IMG/VR virus record: IMGVR_UViG_3300042261_002269
Location: 124,001 to 188,000 of that record
DNA from: a virus
Direction: 5' to 3' (one strand)
DNA length: 64,000 nucleotides
Within the stretch, counting starts at the first letter, position 1; each line of letters begins with the position of its first letter. The notes under the pieces were generated by a model. The model had not been told where the DNA came from. It did not search any database and worked only from the letters and a program-made list of their open reading frames with translations. Made by a program: the position numbers and the translations under genes. This document shows, one piece after another, positions 9,667 to 61,767 of the stretch.

Positions 9667-10134
9667 TTAGTTAAAAGGAAAACGCAACGGCAAAATTTGC
9701 TTTTTTTGTACTTCTTCCAATTCTTCTATTTTTTTAAGAAGAAACAGCATTTCTGCGTTCATTTGCGATAAAGCTATATGGTGTAAGTCTAAACGGTTTT
9801 GAATTCGTTCCAAAATTATAAACAGATCTGTTTCTTTTTTGTCAATAATCTCTGCCAATGTTTCTGACAAATGTCCCTCACAAGGAAGAATCAATTGTGT
9901 TCCATCAAATCCTTCGCCTCGTGGACCAACATACCAAATTTGTATTTTATCATATTGTTCATCGATCCTCGATAACGCTAATTCTCCCCATCTACGTCCT
10001 GGTGGCGGTGGTTGCCAAGGAAACACTGTCTTGGCATACTGCTGTTCCTTGCAGAGCCAAATCCACGAGTCTTTTTGCAACCGTCTCATCCACGGACCTT
10101 CTGGCATTTCATGATTTACTGTTGGCGAATGCAT
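9667..10134 (-). CDS. Hypothetical protein, first gene of leftward cluster, 155 aa
   Basis: Function not recognised. The N-terminal 70 residues are Trp/Pro-rich and the C-terminal 60 are helical, possibly coiled coil. Good AGGAG before the ATG. It follows a 95-bp gap with a promoter-like TATAAT, so it probably opens the transcription unit that runs left to the window edge. Confidence 0.65.
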   Translation of the reverse strand: MHSPTVNHEMPEGPWMRRLQKDSWIWLCKEQQYAKTVFPWQPPPPGRRWGELALSRIDEQYDKIQIWYVGPRGEGFDGTQLILPCEGHLSETLAEIIDKKETDLFIILERIQNRLDLHHIALSQMNAEMLFLLKKIEELEEVQKKQILPLRFPFN

Positions 10135-10229
10135 TTTAATCTCCTAATTCTGCTATATTATACCCCATAACCGCCCACATTGACTATATAACTATGAAAA
10201 TTTGACGTAAGTGGTTGCTGGGTAACACT
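10135..10229 (-). promoter_or_regulatory. Putative promoter of the leftward gene cluster
   Basis: This is the only sizeable gap in the left block. On the minus strand a perfect TATAAT lies at 10162-10157, about 23 bases before the ATG of the 9667-10134 gene; no convincing -35 is seen 17 bases upstream. A plausible start for transcription of the packed genes to its left. Confidence 0.4.
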
Positions 10230-10583
10230 TTACACATTCAGAAAAAGTCTCAAAGCCACATAAAAGAAAATTCCAAGACCTAGAGCATTTAGTGTATTCC
10301 AGAGCCAATTTTTGTAATTTTTGTTTCTAAATTCGCCACACCAATCGTTGTGATTTGTGATGGGCTGATATCCAAAATACCCATACTCTGTGACTCTGCG
10401 AGAGATTTCATCGTGAGAGGAAAATGGAGGAAATCGATGACAACGACCCCGAAACCCATAAGGTTCTTTGGGGTACTCTTCCCAATGTTTGCAATTTTCA
10501 CAAGTAGAATTATTTGTTTCTAAATTAAATTCGTGTTTAGGCTTTCCTGCCTCAGAAATTATTCTACGCCATTTTTTTAACAT
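10230..10583 (-). CDS. Small zinc-binding-like protein with C-terminal membrane helix, 117 aa
   Basis: Cys pattern CENCKHW ... GRCHRFPP ... DWCGEF suggests a four-cysteine metal site. The last 20 or so residues (ALGLGIFFYVALRLF) form one hydrophobic helix, probably a tail anchor. The start at ATG 10583 overlaps the preceding gene by 20 bases; an in-frame TTG at 10619 is less likely. Function unknown. Confidence 0.65.
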   Translation of the reverse strand: MLKKWRRIISEAGKPKHEFNLETNNSTCENCKHWEEYPKEPYGFRGRCHRFPPFSSHDEISRRVTEYGYFGYQPITNHNDWCGEFRNKNYKNWLWNTLNALGLGIFFYVALRLFLNV

Positions 10584-11535
10584 AAATCCGATCTTCCACC
10601 TGTTTAATACTTTCTTCAATTAATTTATATGTTCTTTCTCCAAATGCTTCTACGATTTCTTTTTTTCTGGAATAAAAAGCATAAAAAAGAACTTCTGCTT
10701 TTTCCCAATATTTCAAAGCATATGCGTCATTATCCAAATAAAAATCCATAGTATTATCAATACGATCAGCCAATTTAATGACTAATGCTTGCAATGATCT
10801 TTTGCTAAAACTACTAAGATATTCTGCTTTTTGCTTTGAAACAGATACTAAACGAAGTTTGTTGGGGATAAAAGTCAATTCTTTGACAATTATTGCTGCT
10901 TCTGTTCCAATAATTTCTTCAACTTTGTCATAAGAAATTTCACAATCCTCAATAACATCATGAGCCAAAACAGCTTTTAGCATTGTATTGTCAGAAATTT
11001 CCCAACTACGGATGATTTTAAGAACAGAACATGGATGAATTACAAAAGGCAATTTACTGCCTTTACGCAATTGTCCTTTGTGAGCATTTGCTACAAAGTC
11101 AACTACTATTGCAAATTCTAAATCGTCTGAAAATTTAGGCTTCTTGCGATATTTGTATTTTACTATATCCCAACCCGAACAAGAAACATCTTCCCAGTTG
11201 TTATCAAATGTAGGAGTGCGAAGACAACACTGAACTTCAATGGGAGTGCCACTAATTTTATTTTGATAGTACTCGACCATCAATTTGGAAGCGGATAACA
11301 TTTCTTCCAATGTTCTTTCCAGTGTTTTTTGATAAAAGTCCTCATTTGCTGGTTTTCTGCGATATTCAATTGTTTCATAATCCCAACTAGGAAGCCATTC
11401 TCCATTATCATACCAAGCTTCACGTTCATTTTGGGAACGAAAACGATATTGAAGTACAAATGGCTTTGTGTTAATTTTGTCCGTGTAATATTCAACCATC
11501 AATTGAGCAATTTCTAGCATTTCTTGATCGGTCAT
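10564..11535 (-). CDS. MESH1/SpoT-like HD hydrolase with duplicated N-terminal module, 323 aa
   Basis: Residues about 140-320 match the HD-type (p)ppGpp hydrolase fold: IHPCSVLKII, AVLAHDVIEDC (metal-binding HD with the ED pair) and KLADRIDN (final metal Asp). There is no synthetase domain, so it resembles small MESH1-type alarmone hydrolases. Residues 1-140 contain two related units, each with LMVEYYxxKI and ending in YRKKP or YRRKP, probably a phage accessory fold. It could degrade (p)ppGpp or a related nucleotide during infection. AAAGG precedes the ATG. Confidence 0.8.
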   Translation of the reverse strand: MTDQEMLEIAQLMVEYYTDKINTKPFVLQYRFRSQNEREAWYDNGEWLPSWDYETIEYRRKPANEDFYQKTLERTLEEMLSASKLMVEYYQNKISGTPIEVQCCLRTPTFDNNWEDVSCSGWDIVKYKYRKKPKFSDDLEFAIVVDFVANAHKGQLRKGSKLPFVIHPCSVLKIIRSWEISDNTMLKAVLAHDVIEDCEISYDKVEEIIGTEAAIIVKELTFIPNKLRLVSVSKQKAEYLSSFSKRSLQALVIKLADRIDNTMDFYLDNDAYALKYWEKAEVLFYAFYSRKKEIVEAFGERTYKLIEESIKQVEDRIYVKKMA

Positions 11536-11548
11536 TTCGAGCCTTTCA

Positions 11549-11725
11549 TTAATATGTTTTACTGACCATAATAACGGGGTTGATTTCGCATTTTGGACAC
11601 AATGTCAATGCTTGATATGGTGCAATTTCTATAGAATAGACAAGACGACTAAACAATTCGTGACATTGTGGACATTTTGTAGTAATTGTGACTTTTACAG
11701 GATTTTTCCAATATTCATTATTCAT
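11549..11725 (-). CDS. Zinc-ribbon protein, 58 aa
   Basis: Short gene between the tRNAs and the HD hydrolase. The product begins MNNEYWKNPVK and has CPQC and CPKC about 23 residues apart, a classic two-knuckle zinc ribbon. AGGA lies 8 bases before the ATG. It could bind nucleic acid or act as a small regulator; no further clue. Confidence 0.7.
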   Translation of the reverse strand: MNNEYWKNPVKVTITTKCPQCHELFSRLVYSIEIAPYQALTLCPKCEINPVIMVSKTY

Positions 11726-18425: not shown

Positions 18426-18851
18426 ATGATAAAGAAAATCTTTTTGTTAATTTTATTGTTGTTTGTGGGTTGTAGCCAACATTTCCAGGTAAGACAGGTC
18501 GATGTCAACAAGACCTATGTGCAATATTTACACAATAAAGAAAGAGCATCTAAAAACATTAAAACACTAGAATTAGATGATTCTTTGTCTTTATTTGCAC
18601 AAAAACATGCAGAATGGATGGCGACAAAGGGATTGATGGTACACTCAAATTTAAATTTTGACTTTAAGACCAGAGGCGAAAACATTGCTTTTGGGCAAAA
18701 AACAGAAAATGATGTTATGAAATCCTGGATGGGCTCTACTGGACATCGTAGAAATATTCTAAATTCGAAATTTGAATATATGGGAGTAGGAGTTGCCACC
18801 AATAAGAACGACACAATTTATTGGTGTGTAGTTTTTGGCAGCAATAATTAG
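18426..18851 (+). CDS. CAP/SCP-domain lipoprotein, 141 aa
   Basis: The signal peptide ends in a lipobox (LLLFVGC), predicting lipidation at Cys16. The mature part is a CAP domain: YLHNKERA, HAEWMA, GENIAF and SWMGSTGHRRNIL are the family's hallmark segments, with His residues at the expected cavity positions. It would sit in the host envelope. Phage lipoproteins often block superinfection, but CAP function here is unknown. No Shine-Dalgarno; an AATAAATA box lies 5 bases before the ATG. Confidence 0.82.
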   Translation: MIKKIFLLILLLFVGCSQHFQVRQVDVNKTYVQYLHNKERASKNIKTLELDDSLSLFAQKHAEWMATKGLMVHSNLNFDFKTRGENIAFGQKTENDVMKSWMGSTGHRRNILNSKFEYMGVGVATNKNDTIYWCVVFGSNN

Positions 18852-19153
18852 AAAAGTCTTTTTTGTTTAAAAGGGCTTTCTTTTTTTGGAGGCTTTTTGG
18901 GTTCTATTTGTTCTACCCAGCCTTGATCTACAGCATCTTGAATTCTGTGCCAAACTACCCATTTTGCATTGGGAATCTTGCTTTGTTTTCTCCATGAAGC
19001 AAAGTCTCTTTTGTTATAAAAATTATCTAGATTTGCAGCAAATATATGTCGGATATTGCTTAGGAGAATGTGTATTTCTCCATAATCTTTATATTCTCGC
19101 CATAAGCAATAGATAGGTTCTTCTTTTTGCTCTAACCAACTCTTAAAATTCAT
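18848..19153 (-). CDS. Small protein with capsid-targeting-like N-terminus, 101 aa
   Basis: Begins MNFKSWLEQKEE, matching the signature M-x-F-x-x-W-L-x-x-E shared by many proteins here and similar to the T4 capsid-targeting sequence. The rest is Trp-rich and basic at the C-terminus (PKKPPKKESPFKQKRLF), which could suit DNA contact inside the head. No Shine-Dalgarno is clear. Overlaps the CAP gene end to end by 4 bases. Confidence 0.6.
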   Translation of the reverse strand: MNFKSWLEQKEEPIYCLWREYKDYGEIHILLSNIRHIFAANLDNFYNKRDFASWRKQSKIPNAKWVVWHRIQDAVDQGWVEQIEPKKPPKKESPFKQKRLF

Positions 19154-19799: not shown

Positions 19800-20105
19800 A
19801 TGAAATTCAAAGAATGGTTGCTTTTAGAAAAAGATCAACGCACAGGATCAAAAATCGGCTTATATCCGCCAATTTATGATGTCGTAGGGCAATATCCTCC
19901 TCTATACACAACTCCTGGTTCTGCTGATGTTGTTACATATCTTTGGATTCATTATGGAGATAAAGGACCTCCAGGTAAAAATGGAATCATGGCTCCTCAC
20001 GATCATAAAGAAAATGTAAATAAACGCAGGGGTCAAAAGAAACTAATATCTGACAATACCAAACCCAACATTCTTGGTGATAAGTCCTCCTCCAGGATTG
20101 GCTGA
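19800..20105 (+). CDS. Small protein with capsid-targeting-like N-terminus, 101 aa
   Basis: Starts MKFKEWLLLEKDQ, one of the closest matches to the T4 capsid-targeting peptide, with LLLE as a possible gp21-type cleavage site. The remainder is Pro/Tyr/Gly-rich and has a basic C-terminal half; no domain recognised. No Shine-Dalgarno: ACTAAATATTTAT lies directly before the ATG. Its 3' end overlaps the convergent methyltransferase gene by 63 bases. Confidence 0.6.
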   Translation: MKFKEWLLLEKDQRTGSKIGLYPPIYDVVGQYPPLYTTPGSADVVTYLWIHYGDKGPPGKNGIMAPHDHKENVNKRRGQKKLISDNTKPNILGDKSSSRIG

Positions 20106-20621: not shown

Positions 20622-20686
20622 TTTTAATCCTTTGAATAATCCTAAATAAAATAGCGTGACTATATTATAAAAGCGAAAGGTTAATG

Positions 20687-21220
20687 ATGAGAAATTGGAA
20701 ACAGTTTTTATTAGAGAAGACAGAACATGAATATTCGTCAACCCATGTAAATTTGCCGCATGCCCTTGCTGAGAAAGTAATGAAATTTGGAAAGAAATTA
20801 ATTCCAGATTCTGATGTGTATGATATAGAAGATTATGGCAGAGAAGATGATTGTCATGTAACTATTTTGTATGGTTTACACGACAAAACGCCAGACCGTG
20901 TTAAAAAGGTCGTTAAAGGCGAAAAGCCTATTACATTTGAAATCAAAGAAACATCGGTCTTTGAAAATGAAGAATACGATGTAGTAAAATTCACTGTGGA
21001 AAGTAAAGATTTACATCGTCTAAATGAAAAATTAAGAAAAAATTGCAGTTTTAGCTCGACGCATCCAAAGTACGAGCCCCACTGCACAATTGCCTATGTC
21101 AAAAAAGGAACAGGCAAAAAGTATGCAGGCAATACAGAATTTTCAGGAACTACTGTGACAGTAGATGAAATCGTCTTCAGCAATCAATATCGCATCAAAA
21201 CAAAAATTGTTTTGAAATGA
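20687..21220 (+). CDS. 2H phosphoesterase (Acb1-like class) with capsid-targeting-like N-terminus, 177 aa
   Basis: Two HxT motifs, HVT at about residue 57 and HCT at about residue 132, each followed by hydrophobic strand residues (HVTILYG, HCTIAYV), define the 2H phosphoesterase/2'-5' RNA ligase-like fold. T4 Acb1, which degrades CBASS cyclic nucleotides, belongs to this class with similar HxT spacing. The protein starts MRNWKQFLLEKTE, a strong match to the capsid-targeting signature, so it may be packaged and injected. An ATG one codon earlier exists, but AAGG spacing favours 20687. Specificity for CBASS signals is inference. Confidence 0.78.
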   Translation: MRNWKQFLLEKTEHEYSSTHVNLPHALAEKVMKFGKKLIPDSDVYDIEDYGREDDCHVTILYGLHDKTPDRVKKVVKGEKPITFEIKETSVFENEEYDVVKFTVESKDLHRLNEKLRKNCSFSSTHPKYEPHCTIAYVKKGTGKKYAGNTEFSGTTVTVDEIVFSNQYRIKTKIVLK

Positions 21221-28739: not shown

Positions 28740-29129
28740 ATGCGATTTAAGCACTTTATCATTAATGAACAAGGTCCTGAAATGGGAATGGGAGGAGCCG
28801 CTCCTCCTGGTGGACCTCCAGGGCTCGGTGGACCAGATTTAGGTGGCGGTGCCGGTGCTGCTCCTCCAGGCCCTCCTCCTGGCTTAGGTGGACCTCCAGA
28901 TTTAGGTGGTGGCTTAGGGGCTCCTCCAGGCCCTCCTGTCGGTGGTAATCCAACTTTACCTAAAGATGATGAAGATATTGATTTTTTTGATTTTTTAGAT
29001 AGAAAATATAACAAAGACAAAGAAAACAAAAAGCATAACAAAAAAGGCGCATCTCCTGAAATGCCTCCATTAAACACTAATACTGGAAATATTCCTCCAG
29101 GGCCGCAACCTCCTTTTTTGACACAATAA
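28740..29129 (+). CDS. Gly/Pro-rich protein with capsid-targeting-like N-terminus, 129 aa
   Basis: Begins MRFKHFIINEQGP, a clear capsid-targeting-like start with IINE as a candidate cleavage site. Residues 18-75 are low-complexity Gly/Pro/Ala/Leu (PPGLGGPDLGGG type); the rest is acidic then Lys-rich. Could be an unstructured internal head protein. No Shine-Dalgarno; ACTAAATAAGAT lies immediately before the ATG. The Pro-rich reading on the opposite strand is a shadow. Confidence 0.65.
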   Translation: MRFKHFIINEQGPEMGMGGAAPPGGPPGLGGPDLGGGAGAAPPGPPPGLGGPPDLGGGLGAPPGPPVGGNPTLPKDDEDIDFFDFLDRKYNKDKENKKHNKKGASPEMPPLNTNTGNIPPGPQPPFLTQ

Positions 29130-36376: not shown

Positions 36377-36850
36377 ATGCAAAATTTCAAAAACTTTTTA
36401 ATCAACGAAGAAAAAAGCCATTTGGGACATCGAGTTAATGATGTATTATCTGGCATGGAAGATGTTCAAAAAGACATGGAGAATTTAGGAAGCAGACACC
36501 TAAACAGACTGGCTAATGAAATTGTGAATCAGATTAGGAAAATCTTACACAGTCAATGGTCAAAAGAAGCCAGACCGTATCTTCCTGTATTGCGAAAAAT
36601 TGGAGTTTATCTCGCCAAGGCAATTGAAGAAAAAGGCGATTTAAAAGAAGTGATACCTAATGCAATACGAGAAACTCAAAAACTTATTGGTCAATTGAAG
36701 GTAAAAACAAATAATTTACAAGTTCCTGCAATTGGAAACATTAGCGATAATGACTTCAAGCCAACGCCACAACAACCTCAACCTCAGCCACAACAACAGC
36801 CTCAGCCACAACAGCCTCAGCCAGGAATGTCGCTTATGTTCAAATACTAG
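36377..36850 (+). CDS. Protein with capsid-targeting-like N-terminus and Pro/Gln tail, 157 aa
   Basis: Begins MQNFKNFLINEEKSH, a strong match to the capsid-targeting signature with LINE as possible cleavage point. A helical middle (about residues 20-115) is followed by a PQPQQQP-type low-complexity tail. No Shine-Dalgarno; ACTACATACATT lies directly before the ATG. Probably an internal virion protein; function otherwise unknown. Convergent with the Nudix-like gene, overlapping it by 11 bases. Confidence 0.65.
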   Translation: MQNFKNFLINEEKSHLGHRVNDVLSGMEDVQKDMENLGSRHLNRLANEIVNQIRKILHSQWSKEARPYLPVLRKIGVYLAKAIEEKGDLKEVIPNAIRETQKLIGQLKVKTNNLQVPAIGNISDNDFKPTPQQPQPQPQQQPQPQQPQPGMSLMFKY

Positions 36851-45015: not shown

Positions 45016-46719
45016 TTAAGCTCCTATGACACTTTGTTCTTTTTCTCTAATTTTAGACTTTAAACTGTTGAGTATGGAATGAAATTCTGGTCTTACTTTG
45101 TTTGGATCTATATCTATTATTTGCTTGATATTGTCTAATATGCCAGGACTATTTCTTAAAATCCAATCACAACTCGCAATAAATGCATTTACACTTTTTC
45201 GAAATCCATGAAGCGATATTGTATATTGATAATCTATGGGATACGACTTAATAGTTGTTATGGTCCTTCTCAAATCATTTGCACGCTCCGTTGCTTTATT
45301 TAAAAGACCCTTGTAAGCTTTTCTTTCTGGCGAATCTTCATACCGATGAGATGTGGATGATTGCCTTGTGTGAACAATAGATTTGTCCTGCAATATAGGC
45401 ATTTCTGTGTCATCTGGCAGCTTTTCTGATACGCTGTTTTGTTTAAATCTATCACTCATATAAGGCAAATTACGAATCACCGTTATCATTTCTAGCTTGG
45501 AAGTATCAAAAAATGCACCTTGTGTAGGTTCTGCTCTGTGAATTGCACCGGAATGTTGCAAATCAGCAATACTTGAATAACCAAGTCGCATCAATAATCT
45601 TCTCCATCTTCCTGGCCAATGCCCATCTTTTCCATCTTGTCTTGCCCATTGACGAGCCAATTCTTCAGTCACACGATATACGAATTCATCTTTATTTCTG
45701 GGCAAAACACTTCCTTCTGAAGCCTTTAAGTACCAAATATCTGTAGCTTTAGACAAAGCCAAGCCTATATTCAAATCATATTCATTAGCTATTTCCATCA
45801 ACCCCTTTTTCTTGGGAAAATCCTTACTGATAAGATTTGTTAACTGTTCTTTTTCTACTCTATCATATTCGGCTTTAAAATTAGTAACAAGACTTTTGGC
45901 TTTTTCAAATAACTTAGATTCGTTTATTTTAGACGGGTCAATGCCTGAAGAAGGTTTTCTGACTAAAGCATCAAATTCTTGAGCATCTTTGCCATATAAC
46001 AAAGGAGATTTGATGTACTTTAATAAGAAATTGAACTTAGGATTGTATTTGATTGCTTCTATTGTCTCTGTAGACAGTTGAACCCAGAATTTCCCCGAAT
46101 GATGCACACTGCCATACACTTCATCCACGGCACCTCCAAATATGCTGTCTTTGCCTTTTAGTTCACAAAAAGCTTCGTAACAAACACTTTGTTTTGCGTG
46201 GAATGCTGCTTGACTAGTACTATGTAAAAGCTCTAAAAATGCAAAGTGTCTACATCGCAACAAATATTCGTAGATTTCTTTTAAGCATTTTTCTTCTTCG
46301 ATTCCTTCTGTAGGAAGGCTTCTATAAACTGATTCTAAAATCTTCGCACTATCAATATCTATTTTGTATTGATTTACATCGAAATTTTTGTCTTTAATGC
46401 CTATATCTTTAATGTCTTCATTGACGATAAAAACAACAATATATGGTCTTTTTGATGCAAAATAACTAAAATCCGTGTTCTTGTCTATGACGATTTTAAT
46501 GGGGTAGCCATATAATGCCATTGGGGTTTCTTGTTCTTTGTTTTCTGTTCTAGGCCAGATAGAAATTCTAGGCACATTGGTGAATGTAATCCAGATATTG
46601 GCTTCAGGAATTCCTTCTTGTTTCAATTTATTGGCAATTTCTTCTAATTGCTTAAATTTGTTAAAAGGCCGATGTTCTAAACCAGCCTCAATAAAAAAGA
46701 ATTCTTTAAATGAAACCAT
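45016..46719 (-). CDS. Tandem paralogue 5 of large capsid-targeted family, 567 aa
   Basis: Unknown function. Begins MVSFKEFFFIEAGLEHRPF, where FIE fits the T4-type cleavage motif. Block A (residues about 10-110) has PRISIWPR and MALYGYP, then RPYIVVFIVNE; block B (about 345-425) has a Trp-rich segment, PGRWRRLLMRLGY, SGAIHRAEPTQGAFFDTSKL. Middle and C-terminus are helical and diverged. GGAG precedes the ATG at 46719. Last of five consecutive genes. Confidence 0.75.
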   Translation of the reverse strand: MVSFKEFFFIEAGLEHRPFNKFKQLEEIANKLKQEGIPEANIWITFTNVPRISIWPRTENKEQETPMALYGYPIKIVIDKNTDFSYFASKRPYIVVFIVNEDIKDIGIKDKNFDVNQYKIDIDSAKILESVYRSLPTEGIEEEKCLKEIYEYLLRCRHFAFLELLHSTSQAAFHAKQSVCYEAFCELKGKDSIFGGAVDEVYGSVHHSGKFWVQLSTETIEAIKYNPKFNFLLKYIKSPLLYGKDAQEFDALVRKPSSGIDPSKINESKLFEKAKSLVTNFKAEYDRVEKEQLTNLISKDFPKKKGLMEIANEYDLNIGLALSKATDIWYLKASEGSVLPRNKDEFVYRVTEELARQWARQDGKDGHWPGRWRRLLMRLGYSSIADLQHSGAIHRAEPTQGAFFDTSKLEMITVIRNLPYMSDRFKQNSVSEKLPDDTEMPILQDKSIVHTRQSSTSHRYEDSPERKAYKGLLNKATERANDLRRTITTIKSYPIDYQYTISLHGFRKSVNAFIASCDWILRNSPGILDNIKQIIDIDPNKVRPEFHSILNSLKSKIREKEQSVIGA

Positions 46720-46740
46720 CGTAATACTCCACACTATTTA

Positions 46741-48438
46741 TTATATGTTATCCAAATTTAAACACGTATCCAGCCTGTGCAATATTGGCGATAGTTCCTT
46801 TCTTGAATCTAAATCAATTTCCTGTAAAGATCTCCGAATTTCATTTGCTAAATGAGGCTTATTACGGGCTATCCAGTCATGAATCTTAACATATCTATTG
46901 ACCAAATTTTTTAATCGTTTTACAGAGGCTCTTTCTTTTCCTATTTCAACTTCTGGATTTACCATAAAGTACTTTATATAATCGATGCTGCTTGCTAATT
47001 GAGTAAATAATTGGTTTGCATAGACAGCCAAGCCTGTAGCTTTTTTCTCTTCTGGAGAATTATAGTAATTCCAACCTGTAGGAGTTTTCTTTCGTTGAGA
47101 GCCTCCTGGCTCAAGATGTCCTGAATTATATTTATCGACCAATACAGTACGAGGATCTAGATGCGATCTGTTTACTAACACCGCCACCATCTCTAATTTT
47201 CTTGTATCGAAAAATGCACCTTGAGTAGGCTCAGAACCATGTACAGCCCCAGTATGTTGTAAGTCTACTATATTTGAGATTCCAAGTCTTTTAAGGATTC
47301 TAGCCCATCTAGACGGCCAATATTTATGCTTATCATCTTTATCAGCCCATTGCATTGCTAAATTTTCTGCTATTCTATAAACAAATTGATTTTCATTTTC
47401 AATTGGCATGACAGAGCGTGCGGCGTTTATTATTGCTAAATTAAGATCTAATTGGTGTTCAGTTGCGATTTTTATAAGCTCATCCTTTTTAGGAAATGTT
47501 TTGCTATTCAATACATCATTATGTTGCTTTATAAATTCTGCAAAAGAACTATTACACTCTTTAATAAATGTCACGGTTTTGTTAAACAATTCTTCTTTGT
47601 CTATTTTAGATGGATCGATGCTAGCTGTAGACTTTCTAATTTGTTTGTCAAAATCTAACAATTCCTTTCCGTATAGGATTACTTTATTGGCATATTTGAC
47701 CAAATGACTGAATTGGGGGTATTTTTCGATTTTTAGAACTACTCCCGCAGATAATTCTGCTTTATATTCTGATCCTGCTAGTTCAGAATATAGCTCTGGT
47801 TCAAATTTCTCTACACTATGATAAACTCTATCTATCGTTTCGCCAAATATAGTATCGCCGCCATGTAGGGTATCAAAAGCATTAAATAAAACACGTTCTA
47901 AGGCTATATCCACTGCATTTTCTGCCATCTGCAACACATTAGGAACTGGCGATACAGCACCATGAGTATGATTTTGTATGTAACTGAAAATTACACTTAA
48001 GCATTCTTGTTCTTCGTCGCTTGTATTGGTTATTTTTCTAAATACTGTTTTAGCTACGCTAGCATAATTTTTACTTAAAGAATATTGACTAATGTCAAAA
48101 TCAGTTTTTCCTCCAATATCGTTAATGTTTTCATTAACAATAAAAATAACCATAAAAGCTCGATCACAGCCGTAATAGTAAAAATCTTCAAATTTACGAC
48201 CATAATGATTTATAAAGTTCAATGGATATGCAAACAATGCAGTTGGAGTTCCTTGTTGTCTTGTTTCTGATTGGGGCCAAATAGAAATTCTAGGAACATT
48301 AGTAAATGTAAGCCATATATTGCTTTCAGGAACTCCTTGTTGAGTCAATTTAGCCAAAATATCCTTGATTTTCGTGAATCTGTTGGAAGCACGATCTTTT
48401 AAATTAGACTCAAGTAAAAATTCCTTAAATGAAACCAT
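46741..48438 (-). CDS. Tandem paralogue 4 of large capsid-targeted family, 565 aa
   Basis: Begins MVSFKEFLLESNLKDRASN, with LLES at the expected cleavage place. It shares block A (PRISIWPQ, TALFAYP, RAFMVIFIVNE) and block B (WPSRWARILKRLG, GAVHGSEPTQGAFFDTRKL) with its neighbours. It differs in lacking the GLEHR motif after the signal. AGAGG precedes the ATG. Function unknown. Confidence 0.75.
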   Translation of the reverse strand: MVSFKEFLLESNLKDRASNRFTKIKDILAKLTQQGVPESNIWLTFTNVPRISIWPQSETRQQGTPTALFAYPLNFINHYGRKFEDFYYYGCDRAFMVIFIVNENINDIGGKTDFDISQYSLSKNYASVAKTVFRKITNTSDEEQECLSVIFSYIQNHTHGAVSPVPNVLQMAENAVDIALERVLFNAFDTLHGGDTIFGETIDRVYHSVEKFEPELYSELAGSEYKAELSAGVVLKIEKYPQFSHLVKYANKVILYGKELLDFDKQIRKSTASIDPSKIDKEELFNKTVTFIKECNSSFAEFIKQHNDVLNSKTFPKKDELIKIATEHQLDLNLAIINAARSVMPIENENQFVYRIAENLAMQWADKDDKHKYWPSRWARILKRLGISNIVDLQHTGAVHGSEPTQGAFFDTRKLEMVAVLVNRSHLDPRTVLVDKYNSGHLEPGGSQRKKTPTGWNYYNSPEEKKATGLAVYANQLFTQLASSIDYIKYFMVNPEVEIGKERASVKRLKNLVNRYVKIHDWIARNKPHLANEIRRSLQEIDLDSRKELSPILHRLDTCLNLDNI

Positions 48439-48439
48439 C

Positions 48440-50152
48440 TTACCTCTGTTCTTTAGCCTGAATTCCTAAAGATAATTTGTCCAATGCTGGCAAAAACTCC
48501 TTAATGTGATCATTACGCTCAATACCATCCAATAAATATTTGATTTCTCTAGGGTTATAAAAGCCATAACCCGAATTGTAATTTAATATTTCATCATTTA
48601 TTTTTAGGTATCTATCAACAATCTTTTCTATACTTTCAACATCCTCTTTAGAAATACTACGAGGATACAGAGCTATGGTCCCAATATTCCTAAGAGCATA
48701 ATACAATTTCTTAATTGTATCGTTTACACTTGCTCTCAGACCTTGTAAACGTTTTTGTTCTGGACTTGCCAAATAATCTACTTGGACTCTGTTTCTTTGT
48801 TCTCTGCCCCCTCTAACTTCATAAGGGCTTTCTTGTTGAAAACGAGAATCTGTATGGGATCTATTTCTGATTACTGCTGTCAAAACTAAATTTCTCGTAT
48901 CTAAAAATGCTCCTTGGGTTTCTTCTGATGAATGAACAGTACCAGTCTTTTTTAAGTCCACTACATTGGTAAAGCCAACCCTGGTTAAAATTCTCCTCCA
49001 CCTAGAAGGAGAAAATTCTGGTTTATTGTCTTTCCGTGACCATTGATAAGCCAATTGTTGAGCAAGTCGATAGATAAATTGCCCCTCATTTCTAGGCTGA
49101 TAAGCATCTACGACCGTGTTTATAGAAGCAGGCAGATCTAACCCATATTCTTTACAAATTTCCATAAACTGTTTCTTTTTAGGGAAATCTTCAACATATA
49201 TGCTTTGATGTCTTGCGTAATCAAATTCTTTCTTTTTTTGCATGCAACTGTTTATGAATTCCTCTGCCATTTCTAGAACTTGAGGCTTGTCTTTATACAA
49301 ATCCTGCATAATTTCGCCTAAAATAGACTGGGATATTCTGACTTGTGCATCAAGTTCTATTAATTCTTCTTTGGTTAAACTGTCGCCATCCATATACTTC
49401 TTGAATCTTTGCAATTCTGGAGATTTGTTGATCAAATGTATAAGATTTGCATCTAATGACACACTAATTGTGTTATAAAAATCCTTCCGATCAAGCCTAT
49501 AACCACTAGCCACATAATATACGTGCCATATTCGCTCTCCAAAAATACTATCAGGTCCAGATAAGTATAAATAATCTTTCAGAAAGCTAGCAAGAGCAAA
49601 ATTTGCCGCAGATTTGACCTTGCTTTCAATGTAATCAGGGTCTATTTCGGATTTTACTCCAAATTTATCCGTGCTGTTATCTAACATCAAGTTTTCATTG
49701 CAATAATTATAGATCAATTTGAGATATTTGTTGTTTTGTTTATTGCTTTGCTGATAAACTTCATTGATTATTTCTTCGGTTGTTCTGGATCTGAGCTTAT
49801 CAAGTAAGTCGAATTTTTTGTAACGATCTGCTGTTCCAATGTCGTTTATTTCTTCGTTGGCCACAAAAACAACCATATAATCTCTGCCAAATGCATAATC
49901 GCTAAATGAAAACTCCCATTCTAGAATATGTTTTACGGGATAAGCATATAATCCATGAGGCGTGCCCTGTTCTTTAGTAGCAGATCCGCCCCAAATGGTA
50001 ATTCTAGGAACATCAGTAAATGTAACCCAAATGTTGTTTTCTGGGATCTGTTGCTTGACAAGTTTATCGAATACATCTCTAAGTGTATTAAACTTATTAA
50101 AAGCACGATGTTCCAATCCGCCTTCTATGTAAAAAAAATCTCTAAACCCCAT
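48440..50152 (-). CDS. Tandem paralogue 3 of large capsid-targeted family, 570 aa
   Basis: Begins MGFRDFFYIEGGLEHRAFN. Block A has PRITIWGG, HGLYAYP and DYMVVFVANE; block B has FSPSRWRRILTRVGF, TGTVHSSEETQGAFLDTRNL. GGAG precedes the ATG. The start overlaps the previous paralogue's end by 11 bases, so the array is probably one transcript. Function unknown. Confidence 0.75.
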   Translation of the reverse strand: MGFRDFFYIEGGLEHRAFNKFNTLRDVFDKLVKQQIPENNIWVTFTDVPRITIWGGSATKEQGTPHGLYAYPVKHILEWEFSFSDYAFGRDYMVVFVANEEINDIGTADRYKKFDLLDKLRSRTTEEIINEVYQQSNKQNNKYLKLIYNYCNENLMLDNSTDKFGVKSEIDPDYIESKVKSAANFALASFLKDYLYLSGPDSIFGERIWHVYYVASGYRLDRKDFYNTISVSLDANLIHLINKSPELQRFKKYMDGDSLTKEELIELDAQVRISQSILGEIMQDLYKDKPQVLEMAEEFINSCMQKKKEFDYARHQSIYVEDFPKKKQFMEICKEYGLDLPASINTVVDAYQPRNEGQFIYRLAQQLAYQWSRKDNKPEFSPSRWRRILTRVGFTNVVDLKKTGTVHSSEETQGAFLDTRNLVLTAVIRNRSHTDSRFQQESPYEVRGGREQRNRVQVDYLASPEQKRLQGLRASVNDTIKKLYYALRNIGTIALYPRSISKEDVESIEKIVDRYLKINDEILNYNSGYGFYNPREIKYLLDGIERNDHIKEFLPALDKLSLGIQAKEQR

Positions 50153-51893
50153 TTGGCTCCAATTTTGCTTTAAGTCTATTTAATACAGGAATAATACGAC
50201 CAGTATAGTCTTTTACATTAAGACCATTAAGATCCTTTAATAATTCAAAAATTTCTTTTTTATCAATCCCTATTTGCTCAAAGTTACCAGATAGCCATTT
50301 GTAAATAGACAAGAATTTTTGAATAGCACCCGTTATTGCAGACACACGATGTACTGGCACTGGAGCATGAGATCTTGCAAAGTAATGAAGATTAGAAATT
50401 TCATCCCTTAAAGCCATAACATAAGAATAAGCCTTATCTGCCAAAGCTTTTTGTTGTTTTTCTTCTGGAGTTCCATAGTAAGAACTTAGTGAACTAGTAG
50501 GATCTCTTTGTCTTTGTCTTTTTCCTCCTGTCAACTTTTCTGTTTCTAATGAAGCATCATCGCTTTGTACAGGACGATAGTCAATATGCGATATATTATT
50601 GATAGAAGCTATCATTTCTAATTTTCTTGTGTCAAAAAATGCAGCTTGTGTGGGTTCACTAGCGTGAACGGCTCCAGTGTGTTGTAAATCTGCGATATTG
50701 GTAAATCCAATTTTCTTTAATATCATAGCCCATCTAGCTGGCCAATAATCCTCTTTCCCATCTTTTCTAGCCCATTGAAGTGCCAGTTGTTCTGTAAACC
50801 GGTAGACAAATTGAAGCTTGTTTCGAAGTTTATAAGTTCCAGTCATATGTCTTAAAGCATCGATTATGCTCAGTCCATTTTCTTTGCAGAAAGCCGTAAG
50901 TTCTTTCTTTTTAGGAAAATTATAACGATACACAGATCTCAACCTTTGATCTTTAATTTGTTTAAATGTCTTGATACAGGTTTTAATGAATTTTCTGACG
51001 GACGCTTTAATTTCGGCTTCGTCATTCTTCAAATTTTCGATAATTTCGGCCACACCAGGGCCTGACTGTCTGATTTTTTTGTCAAAATCTATTAACTCTT
51101 GCTTGTTCAAATAATAGGTATATTGTTGCAGATCTTTAAACTTATCCTCATTGTAAGGGCTGTTGATTATTCGTTTTACGTCATAAGATAGTTCAACAAT
51201 AATTCTGCTAAAAATATCATCTGTATCTTCATGATCCGTTCTATAATAAACATCATAAATTTGATATACGCTATTTCCGAATATAGTATCGAACCCTTTC
51301 AAACTCTGAAGTTTTTGTTTTAATATATTCGAAAACACCAATCGTGCTATCTGTTTTGATTTTTGATCGAAAATATCCTTATTCAACCAATAAGCATTCA
51401 ATCTGTTACTAGAATCTGATATTTCGATATATTCATCTGTGAAATAATTATGTATTTCTTCAATGTACTTACAAGATTCATCATTTGCCAATTTTAAATA
51501 AACAGCATCTACAACGTCTTGATTTTTCACAGATTCATTGTTCTTAAACATATTGAATTCAATATGTTTTGCTCCAATATCGTTGATGGCTTCGTTAGCA
51601 ATAAATACAACCATATAAGGACGAGTGTTACCATAATAACGAAAGTCCTGTCCAGCAGCAAGCACTTGTTGAATAGGATAAGCAAATAATGCATGGGGAG
51701 TTCCTTGACTTTTAGTTGCGGATCTGCCCCAAATGGTAATTCTAGGAACTTCCGAAAATGTCACCCAAATATCGGAATCGGCAATTCCTTGATTAGCAAG
51801 CATATTTCTAATATCTTGCAGCTTTTTTAATTTATTAAAAGCCCGATGTTCTAGACCGGCTTCCGATATATTTAAAAATTCTTTGAACAACAT
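50142..51893 (-). CDS. Tandem paralogue 2 of large capsid-targeted family, 583 aa
   Basis: Begins MLFKEFLNISEAGLEHRAF, the longest signal of the set. Block A has PRITIWGR, HALFAYP and RPYMVVFIANE; block B has WPARWAMILKKIGF, TGAVHASEPTQAAFFDTRKL. No Shine-Dalgarno; ACTAAATAACTTATT lies directly before the ATG, almost identical to the leader of paralogue 1. Function unknown. Confidence 0.75.
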   Translation of the reverse strand: MLFKEFLNISEAGLEHRAFNKLKKLQDIRNMLANQGIADSDIWVTFSEVPRITIWGRSATKSQGTPHALFAYPIQQVLAAGQDFRYYGNTRPYMVVFIANEAINDIGAKHIEFNMFKNNESVKNQDVVDAVYLKLANDESCKYIEEIHNYFTDEYIEISDSSNRLNAYWLNKDIFDQKSKQIARLVFSNILKQKLQSLKGFDTIFGNSVYQIYDVYYRTDHEDTDDIFSRIIVELSYDVKRIINSPYNEDKFKDLQQYTYYLNKQELIDFDKKIRQSGPGVAEIIENLKNDEAEIKASVRKFIKTCIKTFKQIKDQRLRSVYRYNFPKKKELTAFCKENGLSIIDALRHMTGTYKLRNKLQFVYRFTEQLALQWARKDGKEDYWPARWAMILKKIGFTNIADLQHTGAVHASEPTQAAFFDTRKLEMIASINNISHIDYRPVQSDDASLETEKLTGGKRQRQRDPTSSLSSYYGTPEEKQQKALADKAYSYVMALRDEISNLHYFARSHAPVPVHRVSAITGAIQKFLSIYKWLSGNFEQIGIDKKEIFELLKDLNGLNVKDYTGRIIPVLNRLKAKLEPNGV

Positions 51894-51924
51894 AATAAGT
51901 TATTTAGTGTCAAAGAATCCTATT

Positions 51925-53625
51925 TTACATTGTATTTTCGTAGGCAGTGTCGATTGTAGATTTAATATTGTCTAAGAGAGGCTTGATAGCTTCTGAATTG
52001 TTTTTAAATTCAATTTGTGATATTAGTCTTTTTAAAGAATACAAATCATATCCCCAAGAAGATTGATTTTGAGCCCAATTTAAGACTTTCTTGAAACTAC
52101 TGAAAGCTTTTTTCAAATACTCAACGTATTCACTTGACACACTAACGCCAAAATCCAAACTCCTTTCGACCCTGGACAAAGCATTCTTTAAATCAACAAA
52201 TCGACTTTTGGTATTATATTGCCTTGCTTCTGCTTCTTTTTCCTGAGGCGAACTAAAATAATTATTAGGAGAGCCAGATTTTCGTTGTTCTCGTCCCCCA
52301 GATATGAAGCTGGGACTTTGATAAAAACGATAATCATTATGGGATTTATTGCGTACCAATCCGACCATCTCTAATTTTCTTGTATCAAAAAACGCACCTT
52401 GCGTAGATTCGGCAACATGCACTGCACCAGTATTCCTTAAATCTGCTATGTTAGTATATCCAATTGCTTTAAGTATTCTGGTCCATCTAGATGGATAGTA
52501 TCGATACTTTCCATCCTTTTCTGCCCATTGCATTGCTAATTGTTCAGTAAAACGATAGATGACCTGACTGTCATTTTCAATCTTATTTCCTGAAGTTTGC
52601 ATGTTTTTAAAGGCCCTAACCACATCCAATCCATGATTTTGGGCAAATTGAAGCAATTTCTTTTTATTGGGAAAGTCTTTGCCGAATGCCTTGCTGATTC
52701 TTAGTTTATTTATGTTTTTTTGTTTTTTGACACAATTATCAAACAGCATTTGAATTATTTTTGTGATCTCGGGCTCATCTTGACGAAGTCTTTTTATCAC
52801 TTCAGATATTTTAGGAATGCCATCTTTTCTAATTTGCGAATCGAATCTTAGCAATACATCTAATGGCAAAAGTGTACGTCCATATTGACTAATGTAGTCA
52901 AATTCGGGAATATTTAAAATTTTATCAAATGCTTCCAAAGATAAACTCACATTTAAATATGTGTCGCTGAAAAGTTGGATGCTTTGAGAGTTGTGATAAT
53001 CTTTATAATGTCTATAAACGTATGGTATTTCATCTCCAAGTATGGTATCCGAACCTCGTAAATCCATAACCTCGTCTAAGTTTTCTTCAATAACATGTCT
53101 TAATGTATCTTTTGATTTGTATTTGATTTCATCATCGTCTATTGATGAAAAGTCAATATACCAATAAGATCCAAATTTTTTACTAATCAAATTAAAATAA
53201 GGATTAGATTTTATTGATTTATCGATGTTTTTATAAACAGACCTAACGACCTCAGGAGTTTCTGCTGCTTTAAATCTGTTTCTAATCTTGAAATCGGCAT
53301 TTGCTCCTCCTATATCGTTGATTTTTTCGTTTGCAATAAATACAACAATATAAGGTCTGTCAGTGGCGTATTCGCCAAAAGTATCTTTTCTTTCAAGAAT
53401 TTTTGTTATAGGATAGGCAAACAAAGCATGAGGAGTGCCTTGAGCTTTATCTGCTGAGCCTCCCCAAATAGTAATTCTAGGAACTTCCGAATAAGTTACC
53501 CAAATATCACTTTCAGAATATCCTTGTTGCATAAGCAAATTGCGAATTTCTTCTAATTTTTTGAACTTGTTGAAAGCACGATGCTCTAAACCAGCCTCAA
53601 ATATCACAAAATCTTTAAATCCCAT
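51925..53625 (-). CDS. Tandem paralogue 1 of large capsid-targeted family, 566 aa
   Basis: First gene of the array. Begins MGFKDFVIFEAGLEHRAFN. Block A has PRITIWGG, HALFAYP and RPYIVVFIANE; block B has YPSRWTRILKAIGY, TGAVHVAESTQGAFFDTRKL. No Shine-Dalgarno; ACTAAATAAGTTATT abuts the ATG, a late-promoter-like box that would give a leaderless message. Function unknown; block layout is what I would expect of a two-part enzyme or toxin-like fold. Confidence 0.75.
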   Translation of the reverse strand: MGFKDFVIFEAGLEHRAFNKFKKLEEIRNLLMQQGYSESDIWVTYSEVPRITIWGGSADKAQGTPHALFAYPITKILERKDTFGEYATDRPYIVVFIANEKINDIGGANADFKIRNRFKAAETPEVVRSVYKNIDKSIKSNPYFNLISKKFGSYWYIDFSSIDDDEIKYKSKDTLRHVIEENLDEVMDLRGSDTILGDEIPYVYRHYKDYHNSQSIQLFSDTYLNVSLSLEAFDKILNIPEFDYISQYGRTLLPLDVLLRFDSQIRKDGIPKISEVIKRLRQDEPEITKIIQMLFDNCVKKQKNINKLRISKAFGKDFPNKKKLLQFAQNHGLDVVRAFKNMQTSGNKIENDSQVIYRFTEQLAMQWAEKDGKYRYYPSRWTRILKAIGYTNIADLRNTGAVHVAESTQGAFFDTRKLEMVGLVRNKSHNDYRFYQSPSFISGGREQRKSGSPNNYFSSPQEKEAEARQYNTKSRFVDLKNALSRVERSLDFGVSVSSEYVEYLKKAFSSFKKVLNWAQNQSSWGYDLYSLKRLISQIEFKNNSEAIKPLLDNIKSTIDTAYENTM

Positions 53626-59645: not shown

Positions 59646-59906
59646 ATGTATATGGATACAAAAATAACAGCAAATCCGGTGCAATTGCTCGAATTAAGCG
59701 AAATAATTGAAAAATTAAGAAAAAATGGATATTCAGAAGTTGTGGAATGCCTCCTGGACAATGAAGCAGAATGTTACACTAAAAAAGGCCGCTTAAACAA
59801 AAGTGCAACCACCAGAAAATTAAAATGGAAAAATAAACAATTAGAAGATGCTTTGGAAAATATGCGAGAATTATTAAAAAATGAATTTCAACTGGAAGAA
59901 AGCTAG
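59646..59906 (+). CDS. Small helical protein, 86 aa
   Basis: Helical, charged protein (EIIEKLRKNGYSEVVECL); function not recognised. An AGG lies 10 bases before the first of two close ATGs; a start two codons on is also possible. It converges on the tube paralogue, overlapping it by 4 bases. Confidence 0.55.
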   Translation: MYMDTKITANPVQLLELSEIIEKLRKNGYSEVVECLLDNEAECYTKKGRLNKSATTRKLKWKNKQLEDALENMRELLKNEFQLEES

Positions 59907-60466
59907 CCTATTCCATACATGCTAGGAGTTCCAAAATAAGCTCTCGCAAATCTGATTACAAGATCGCAAGACATAATAGATGAATCTGACATATCTAAAG
60001 TCTGAAAATCTACAGATTGTAACCAAGCATGTTCATAGGTCCAATGTTCAATAACCGTTCCACAGCCATCAACCATATAAACTATGCAAGTTTTAAACAT
60101 CTTATATTGATTGGGCCTAGCTACCATTCCTAAATGCGGCTCATAGTATTGTTGCACCCATCCCCAAACCGGATGTGATTGAACAGCCCGACTTCCATCT
60201 GCATAGCTTCTCTGTAAATCATAAAGAGTAACGTTAAGCGGTTTCCAATCAGGCTTTGTTGGAAGATAAACATCTTCAGTAATATGATTAACGACCATTT
60301 CTTTAAAGCTTAAAGATGGCCTTGCTGCCTTTTCAGGAGGCAGAATGTTGACCAATTTTGTATCTGAAGGTCCAGGACTAATTCCATTAATTTCAAGAAA
60401 CCATCTATTCTTTCGTTTAGAATAGAGATTCCTCTCTAGTCCGAATTGCACTCCCATTGAAGCCAT
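59903..60466 (-). CDS. Tail tube paralogue 3 (gp19-like), 187 aa
   Basis: Diverged relative of the two upstream tube proteins: RWFLEINGI, then ARPSLSFKE in the position of RPxLxIEE, TKPDWKPLNVTLYD and VDGCGTVIEHWT match their blocks. The first strand and the C-terminus differ, suggesting a specialised tube end or an additional ring. A terminator lies upstream, so this gene may be expressed separately. AAGGA precedes the ATG. Confidence 0.75.
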   Translation of the reverse strand: MASMGVQFGLERNLYSKRKNRWFLEINGISPGPSDTKLVNILPPEKAARPSLSFKEMVVNHITEDVYLPTKPDWKPLNVTLYDLQRSYADGSRAVQSHPVWGWVQQYYEPHLGMVARPNQYKMFKTCIVYMVDGCGTVIEHWTYEHAWLQSVDFQTLDMSDSSIMSCDLVIRFARAYFGTPSMYGIG

Positions 60467-60481
60467 AAGTGTTTTCCTTTT

Positions 60482-60515
60482 AAAAAAGTAAATGCCCCGA
60501 CCTTAATCGGGGCGT
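60482..60515 (-). terminator. Rho-independent terminator between tube paralogues
   Basis: A GCCCCGA/TCGGGGC stem (60494-60513) with a 6-base loop, followed on the minus strand by ATTTACTTTTTT. It lies 20 bases past the stop of the 60532-61107 gene. Confidence 0.8.
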
Positions 60516-60531
60516 TTTCCTAATTTAATTG

Positions 60532-61107
60532 CTATTTTTTAGTTGAGCAACTTGTGCAGCAACCTTGAGGCTGGAATGACGGGCAATACGAAGTATATCT
60601 AACATCAGAATAACGCATACCTAATTCGATGGTGGCTTCGTCACTTGTGCCATAATCAAGATCTCCGAAATTGATTGTTTTTGGCCAAAGATTCTTCAAT
60701 TCCCATGTTTCCAATGGTGATCCACAACCATCATATAATGTCAAAATACCAGTTGCCGCCCAATCTCTTTTATTTCCCATTTTCAAGGATGTTGGGTTGG
60801 TAAAATCATATACAGAGACTAGCCAGTTCCATAACAACGCCATGTGCTCGCTGGCAGCATCAACGTAGGTAATGGTAATGTCTTGCCATTCTGCTTTACC
60901 AGGAATCCAAGTACGAGCATTAAGAAAGTTAAGTGTCGTTTCTTCGATACTTAGATTAGGACGAGATGCTGTTTTGACAAAATGCTCTGGAACATTATTC
61001 TTTGCATTGTTGCAAAAACCAACGATTTCAAAGGTGTAACGAAATTTTCTCTTAATTGTAATATCTGGCTGGCCTATAACGCCGATTCCCATATCTCTTT
61101 GTGCCAT
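60532..61107 (-). CDS. Tail tube paralogue 2 (gp19-like), 191 aa
   Basis: Homologous to 61136-61702 throughout: IGQPDITIKRKFRYTFEI, SRPNLSIEETTLNFLNA, PGKAEWQDITITYVD, LYDGCGSPLETWEL, DLDYGTSDEATIELGMRYS. Ends in a Cys-rich tail (CCTSCSTKK). AGGAG precedes the ATG at 61107; the longer frame to 61188 runs into the upstream gene. Confidence 0.85.
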   Translation of the reverse strand: MAQRDMGIGVIGQPDITIKRKFRYTFEIVGFCNNAKNNVPEHFVKTASRPNLSIEETTLNFLNARTWIPGKAEWQDITITYVDAASEHMALLWNWLVSVYDFTNPTSLKMGNKRDWAATGILTLYDGCGSPLETWELKNLWPKTINFGDLDYGTSDEATIELGMRYSDVRYTSYCPSFQPQGCCTSCSTKK

Positions 61108-61135
61108 TTTTTCTCCTAAAATTATAAAAATTGGA

Positions 61136-61702
61136 CTAAAAGTAGCATCCCATACAATTGTTTGTATTAGGATCAAGTTTAGGTCCACAGTAATTAAAAT
61201 AATGAACTTGCGAGTATCTTATCTGTAATTGTATTGTAGCTTCATCTGATTCTGCATAACTCAAATCTCCAAAATCAACACTCGTTGGAAAACACTTGGC
61301 CAATTGCCATAATTCCAACAGATTTCCACAACCGTCATACATACCTAAATTTGCTAAACCACCCCAGCCCAACATTTCAGACTGTCTCATGTTTACTACA
61401 TCATGAAAATTCCAAACTGTTCTTATCCAATTATGTATCTGCAATGTTGTGCCTGCTTTATCAACAACGTCAATATAAGTCACATCAAGAGCGTCCCATT
61501 TGCCTTTTCCAGGGTAATATTCAGTTGAATTAAGAAAGTTTAATTCTTTTTCTTCTATAGTTAACTTAGGTCTGCTTGCCACTTTTACATATGAACGTGG
61601 TATAGTTCCAAAAGGATGTTGAATATCCAGTGTAAATCTAAATTTTCTCTTTATAATTATGGCAGGAGAGCCTAAGTCTCCGATTCCCATTGATATAGGC
61701 AT
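61136..61702 (-). CDS. Tail tube protein 1 (gp19-like), 188 aa
   Basis: T4 gp19-like tube subunit: GSPAIIIKRKFRFTLDI, ASRPKLTIEEKELNFLNS, GKGKWDALDVTYID, MYDGCGNLLELWQL and SYAESDEATIQLQIRYS. It forms the inner tube inside the sheath, whose gene is directly upstream. Cys-rich C-terminus (NNCMGCYF) like its neighbour. AAAGGT before the ATG. Confidence 0.88.
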   Translation of the reverse strand: MPISMGIGDLGSPAIIIKRKFRFTLDIQHPFGTIPRSYVKVASRPKLTIEEKELNFLNSTEYYPGKGKWDALDVTYIDVVDKAGTTLQIHNWIRTVWNFHDVVNMRQSEMLGWGGLANLGMYDGCGNLLELWQLAKCFPTSVDFGDLSYAESDEATIQLQIRYSQVHYFNYCGPKLDPNTNNCMGCYF

Positions 61703-61723
61703 GTTTACCTTTAAATTTGTAAT

Positions 61724-61759
61724 ATAACCTTCTGAGGAATTAATTCCTCAGAAGGTTAT
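61724..61759. terminator. 36-bp perfect palindrome between sheath and tube genes
   Basis: The two 18-base arms, from ATAACCTTCTGAGG to its exact complement CCTCAGAAGGTTAT, meet at AATTAATT. It sits 8 bases beyond the sheath stop. There is no T run on either side, so this may be an attenuator or RNA-processing hairpin rather than a simple terminator. Confidence 0.55.
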
Positions 61760-61767
61760 TAATAAAA

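Follow-up and report, generated by a model that had tools for sequence, protein, structure and literature searches.

What would a small phosphoesterase gene, alone on the plus strand with minus-strand genes on either side, do for a huge phage, and when would its product meet the host? The gene lies in the window, a stretch of 64,000 nucleotides that comprises bases 124001–188000 of a 190,199-base metagenomic virus record (IMG/VR IMGVR_UViG_3300042261_002269; here G000). Its coding sequence (20684..21220, +; 178 aa) opens with two in-frame ATGs, at 20684 and 20687; a preliminary description of this DNA had begun the gene at 20687, which is in frame but is the second of the two, the ORF opening at 20684. 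Judged from its gene content, the source is a huge phage that is T4-like in its head genes: the 190-kb record contains homologs of T4-type gp17, gp18, gp20, gp21, and gp23, together with a gp22-like gene. A PADLOC search gave no match.

The promoter offers no help with timing. The T4 late-promoter motif TATAAATA is absent upstream of the 2H gene and, over all gene starts, has four exact matches versus 1.2 expected, with none at head genes. No argument about when the gene is expressed can therefore be drawn from it.

The enzyme and its place between Acb1 and LigT

By its sequence, the gene product is a 2H phosphoesterase. The ORF translation and an alignment of 31 standalone proteins place the first catalytic motif, His58-Val-Thr60, at 20855..20863 (+) and the second, His133-Cys-Thr135, at 21080..21088 (+), within T-H-P-K-Y-E-P-H-C-T-I-A-Y-V-K-K-G. 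With starts at 58 and 133, the two HxT motifs are 75 residues apart, as had been estimated. H58, T60, H133, and T135 are kept in 31/31 aligned proteins, in which Y63, G64, F93, A137, and Y138 are also invariant and V139-K140-K141-G142 is nearly so, providing a subfamily signature. The protein belongs to the 2H superfamily in Pfam (PF13563, 37.1 bits against a cut-off of 27, 4.2e-9) and also scores above the cut-off of the Acb1 family (PF23474, 32.5 bits against 27, 8.7e-8), which is matched by all 31 aligned proteins at E ≤ 0.01. It further matches PHROG 755, "RNA ligase", at 2e-12. The NCBIfam model for RNA 2′,3′-CPDases of the LigT/ThpR type, TIGR02258, gives 36.1 bits, below its equivalog cut-off of 65.7, which leaves the protein outside that family. 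In an AlphaFold2 model built with the 31 sequences (mean pLDDT 92.7), residues 1–13 fall below 50 and nearly all others exceed 90, so that the disordered N-terminal leader is separable from the enzyme.

A single-sequence search of IMG/VR returned no confirmed relatives, and alignment-based searches were required; these recovered more than 400. Among 79 non-redundant relatives (32 standalone proteins, 22 giant proteins, and 25 other fusions or unclear cases), 78 contain two HxT/S motifs.

Is the enzyme closer to Acb1 or to LigT? Significant Foldseek matches are nearly all 2H proteins (drCPDase, Usb1, Acb1 of BCSR5 and FBB1, LigT, and AtCPDase) with TM-scores of ~0.5–0.66, the highest of which, 0.66, belongs to the Arabidopsis Appr>p CPDase. 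Together with the PF13563 score and the invariant tetrad, these matches confirm the 2H class that was first assigned. The structural comparison with Acb1 and LigT that the preliminary description had called for upholds the fold but ranks cyclic phosphodiesterases and Acb1 equally; since TM-scores are alike across 2H proteins, the fold picks out no substrate. Fold searching, which did not separate Acb1 from LigT/CPDase or Usb1, was set aside as an arbiter.

By sequence profile against PDB sequences, the nearest solved structure is 9q2g (1.2e-9), a phage protein labeled Acb1, followed by the LigT-like 1vdx (4.9e-5) and Acb1 7t26 (2e-4). Profile-profile scores of 69 for the family against Acb1, 63 for the family against LigT, and 39 for Acb1 against LigT place the family between the two. 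The protein shares with LigT/ThpR its fold and tetrad, a similar length, and a similar profile score. It differs in falling below the TIGR02258 cut-off and in the region of the second motif, which in Acb1 reads T-x-D-[FY]-x-x-Y-x-P-H-x-T-[LI]-[SA]-Y and in most of the phage family T-x-x-[YFH]-x-x-Y-x-P-H-x-T-[IL]-A-Y. LigT proteins lack the upstream aromatic, whereas the phage proteins have an additional aromatic residue or His six residues ahead of the second HxT; in addition, the position tested by H-x-T-x-x-R is Tyr in 31/31 family proteins and Arg in 7/7 LigT proteins.

In Acb1, Y12, W74, F107, and W147 stack on the bases and E141 reads adenine (PMC9117128). Y17, F93, and H127 of the phage protein align with Y12, W74, and F107, the F93 position being Phe also in LigT-like 1vdx and position 127 being His here and Tyr or Phe in many relatives. 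The alignment contains no equivalent of Glu141 or of the lid residue Trp147, the protein stopping before the lid. Thus, the protein has in common with Acb1 (T4 gp57B; Burkholderia phage BCSR5 9q2g; PF23474) that it is phage encoded, the 2H fold with its HxT/HxT tetrad, aromatics where Acb1 has Y12 and W74 (and, in many of the relatives, F107), and a Tyr after each HxT motif. It differs in lacking the C-terminal lid Trp and the Glu141 equivalent, in an extra VKKGxGKK segment, in a distinct leader with a putative cleavage site, and in that its catalysis is predicted. On these residues, the protein may well function as Acb1 does, although for want of counterparts of E141 and W147 it fails part of the Acb1 definition; an anti-CBASS function, as originally suggested, is plausible.

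A capsid-targeting-like leader and its relatives

The capsid-targeting sequence of T4 is N-terminal and ~10 residues long, with residues 4 and 7 serving targeting and residues 8 and 10 serving cleavage by gp21 (PMC9026906). The first 11 residues of the phage protein, MMRNWKQFLLE (20684..20716, +), have this layout: an aromatic pair three apart, W5/F8, is followed by the site L9-L10-E11, where gp21-type cleavage is predicted after Glu11 (L-x-E|K). Motifs of this shape occur at 13 of the 281 gene starts in the 190-kb record whereas internal windows of these proteins predict 1.07 (P ≈ 1e-10, a value that is indicative, as the pattern was set after the first examples had been seen). The capsid-targeting-like N-terminus that had been noted is therefore well founded. 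That it distinguishes the protein from Acb1 holds in part: the phage 2H protein has a leader with a cleavage site, but the Acb1 proteins of T4 and Aeh1 also have leader-like starts. T4 Acb1 begins MMEFKDFSTG (L017 3953–4411) and that of Aeromonas phage Aeh1 begins MLKSFSEFTEATK, i.e., MLKSFSEFTEA (L125 1465–1959), both of which resemble a capsid-targeting sequence, and T4 acb1 adjoins ipI; we regard these starts and this position as a lead.

T4 IPI is an injected anti-restriction protein and T4 Alt is an injected enzyme. The internal head proteins of T4 (IPI, IPII, IPIII, and Alt) likewise have an N-terminal leader of 10–11 residues with an aromatic pair three apart and an I/L-x-E site, in a genome that encodes a gp21-type protease; the putative cargo here differs in being a 2H phosphoesterase. 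A gp21-type prohead protease is present in the same genome as the 2H gene: the homolog (record 65611–66021) matches PF03420 at 1.7e-27 and aligns with T4 gp21 across the conserved His, Ser, and Asp regions, and the gp23 homolog has LMNE|A aligned to LTE|A of T4 gp23.

Leaders recur among the standalone relatives, with starts such as MKTWQQFLQEK (L019), MMKTWNKFLDEK (L024), MKFRNWLLEM (L037), MRFKQFYLEEA (L057), MKSYKTFLNEN (L117), MKSWTQFLAET (L118), and MSFKQFLVNE (L223, L224). Tallied by eye, ~20 of the 28 standalone relatives from T4-type phages have one, two being too diverged to judge and two ambiguous, and among relatives that have diverged at more than half of their other positions, the majority keep the leader. 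At least five proteins from T4-type phages lack it (L041, L099, L102, L218, and L225). PF03420 was found in 12 of the 22 records with a standalone 2H gene (G000 and 11 others) and in 0/13 fusion-bearing records, many records in these counts being fragments. A comparison of leaders with the presence of gp21 (10/10 versus 0/4, Fisher test) was discarded because the records had partly been chosen by their leaders.

Where is the gene found? At least 15 relatives have it between the genes for terminase (gp17) and portal (gp20), a position that three of the leaderless ones retain. L117 has it instead between gp14 and gp15, with other tagged genes on either side, and in L057 (2936–5528) it sits within a run of genes with near-identical leaders (MKFKEFYIIEK, MKFKEFYLTEG, MRFKKFYLTEG, and MRFKQFYLEEA), which by these leaders is a probable cassette of head cargo. 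The leader-tagged neighbors in relatives contain no Pfam domain and hence give no functional hint. Within the gp23 clade, the 2H gene is nearly universal: it occurs in 12 of 17 records, and none of the six larger than 130 kb lacks it.

Other relatives are fused to larger proteins: a portal-2H-MuF chain (L033), a giant ART-PolyVal protein with a phosphoribosyltransferase (L029), an Eco57I-methylase with SNF2 (L026), and fusions to LPD38 (L051), a transglycosylase (L064), or deoxyribosyltransferase-like domains (L049, L075, and L116). Proteins of the portal/MuF and polyvalent kinds either reside in the head or have been predicted to enter the cell by injection. The homologous 2H domains of such polyvalent and MuF/portal fusions were proposed to act, after injection, as RNases or against nucleotide-based signals and defenses (Iyer et al. 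2017, PMC5512222). The protein described here differs in being small and standalone, with a cleavable-looking tag in place of a giant or portal chain. We also observed a 2H protein (L011 5992–7308) with a leader-like N-terminus, MKLKKYKQFIKES, and a second domain that has a WLDTETTG motif and is DnaQ-like by eye.

Because of the leader enrichment, the gp21-type protease, the terminase–portal synteny, the tagged relatives, and the portal/MuF and giant polyvalent fusions, we infer that the protein is probably a head-targeted 2H phosphoesterase that is packaged, cleaved, and injected. The head packaging envisaged in the preliminary description thus gains support from several sides.

Probable head delivery and the choice of substrate

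If the enzyme is delivered by the head, what would it act on? We propose that its first 11 residues bring it to the prohead core in the manner of a T4-type capsid-targeting sequence; there, the gp21-type protease would cut after Glu11 to leave a 167-residue, 19-kDa 2H phosphoesterase in the head. The mature enzyme would enter the cell together with the phage DNA, and its His58/Thr60/His133/Thr135 tetrad would open a phosphodiester via 2′,3′-cyclic-phosphate chemistry. The most likely target would be a small host nucleotide alarm, such as the CBASS-type cyclic oligonucleotides that Acb1 attacks, and host signaling would be damped from the first minutes. Given packaging, such an alarm is our best guess for the substrate, close to but short of probable, and RNA ends, a substantial possibility, rank next. 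The whole chain, with the class of signal read broadly, we put forward tentatively. The match of every aligned protein to PF23474, 9q2g as the best PDB relative, the Acb1-like residues of the second motif, and the failure to find an RNA ligase in the record would favor a signal as substrate; the missing Glu141 and Trp147, the near-equal scores of 69 and 63, the leaderless relatives, and a co-tagged nucleotidyltransferase and HD protein would speak against the chain. T4 Acb1 activity is first seen ~15 min after infection (PMC9117128). Pre-loading is therefore not needed for the anti-CBASS activity of T4, and a pre-loaded enzyme would represent a different tactic.

It is possible, if doubtful, that the packaged enzyme instead opens 2′,3′-cyclic phosphate termini of tRNA, whether from the host or the phage, and that a co-packaged nucleotidyltransferase with HD domains restores 3′ ends after the action of tRNA-cutting or -capping defenses. 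A poly(A)-polymerase/CCA-type nucleotidyltransferase (PF01743; record 10107–11567, L002, −) begins with the capsid-targeting-like MFKKFSDYKRSKDQLNEA, and an HD-domain protein (record 94199–95008, L006 18199–19008, +) begins with MKFKNWLLQES; that these proteins are co-tagged suggests repair of RNA 3′ ends. All six T4-type records that contain a tagged 2H gene and were tested for PF01743 encode such a protein, each with a leader-like start, those in other records having the form F-x-x-Y-[VI]...E (MKKFHEYIELKEA, SFKDYVVFKEE, NFREYILLREM, MLTFKKYVQLLE, and TFLEYVGLKEN). Moreover, L228/L229 are leader-tagged proteins that combine HD motifs (by eye) with the nucleotidyltransferase, and one chain in L098 (4983–7571) combines 2H, PolyA_pol, PolyA_pol_RNAbd, and HD domains. 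The TIGR02258 score, although below its cut-off, is as high as that for Acb1. However, PF01743 is rarer than 2H in the gp23 clade, being missing from two of the six large records with 2H, and the surroundings of the second motif resemble those of Acb1. In addition, no RNA ligase (PF09414, PF09511, or RtcB) was found in G000, a record that is perhaps incomplete, and Iyer et al. found no case in which these 2H domains accompany RNA ligases (PMC5512222). An association of 2H genes with RNA ligases, which we considered, was mostly absent when checked.

An ordinary cytoplasmic 2H enzyme, synthesized like T4 Acb1 in the course of infection and with a leader-like start that is coincidental or serves, for example, membrane association, is an unlikely alternative. 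The time at which T4 Acb1 becomes active, the leaderless relatives at the same gene position, and the shortness of the motif are all consistent with such an enzyme, but the enrichment of the motif over expectation, the retention of the leader amid extensive divergence, and the gp21-type protease with head-gene synteny argue against it. A packaged enzyme acting on an NAD- or ADP-ribose-derived signal, 2′-5′ oligoadenylate, or the cyclic oligoadenylate of type III CRISPR systems is more improbable still: nucleoside deoxyribosyltransferase-like, phosphoribosyltransferase, and ADP-ribosyltransferase domains are fusion partners of 2H in relatives, the Appr>p CPDase has the top TM-score, and viral 2′-5′ phosphodiesterases are among the Foldseek matches, but all 2H folds score alike and no sequence feature links the family to these substrates.

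Returning to a head-delivered enzyme that acts on a nucleotide signal, what appears to be new is the short targeting tag on a standalone 2H protein, since injected 2H domains that counter nucleotide signals were already predicted in 2017 (PMC5512222). The literature searched contained no tagged standalone 2H protein and nothing relevant on Acb1 carried in virions; no Acb protein in that literature acts before phage transcription. If the enzyme is pre-loaded, anti-signaling or RNA-repair counter-defense would precede phage transcription. The principle of injected proteins established by T4 IPI and Alt would then apply also to an enzyme that hydrolyzes nucleotides or RNA, in a clade of huge phages in which its gene is nearly a core gene, and metagenomes could be mined for injected cargo by a sequence rule.

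Other leader-tagged genes of the phage

Additional genes in the window have capsid-targeting-like starts. These include a 101-aa ORF without a known domain (19800..20105, +; MKFKEWLLLEK), a 129-aa ORF (28740..29129, +; MRFKHFIINEQ), and a 157-aa ORF (36377..36850, +; MQNFKNFLINEE). A second 101-aa ORF (18848..19153, −; MNFKSWLEQKEE) has a weaker resemblance and no clear L-x-E site. We speculate that huge phages with T4-type heads pre-load a tagged kit, comprising the 2H enzyme, the poly(A)/CCA-type nucleotidyltransferase, the HD protein, and others, that hits nucleotide alarms or repairs tRNA ends as the DNA enters and before phage expression.

Five tandem paralogs of 565–583 aa (45016..53625, −), which are 31–38% identical and have no significant Pfam or PHROG match, also have capsid-targeting-like N termini, with I/L-x-E|A/S/G sites. 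Four of them are among the 13 motif-bearing gene starts, and the fifth fits from its second start; by these features, they are candidates for abundant internal head proteins. Finally, the T4-type portal gene, gp20 (record 59847–62528, +), contains an apparent intein (CLAGRTKVATPHGFKTIRHLK...VVHNC), as judged by eye.
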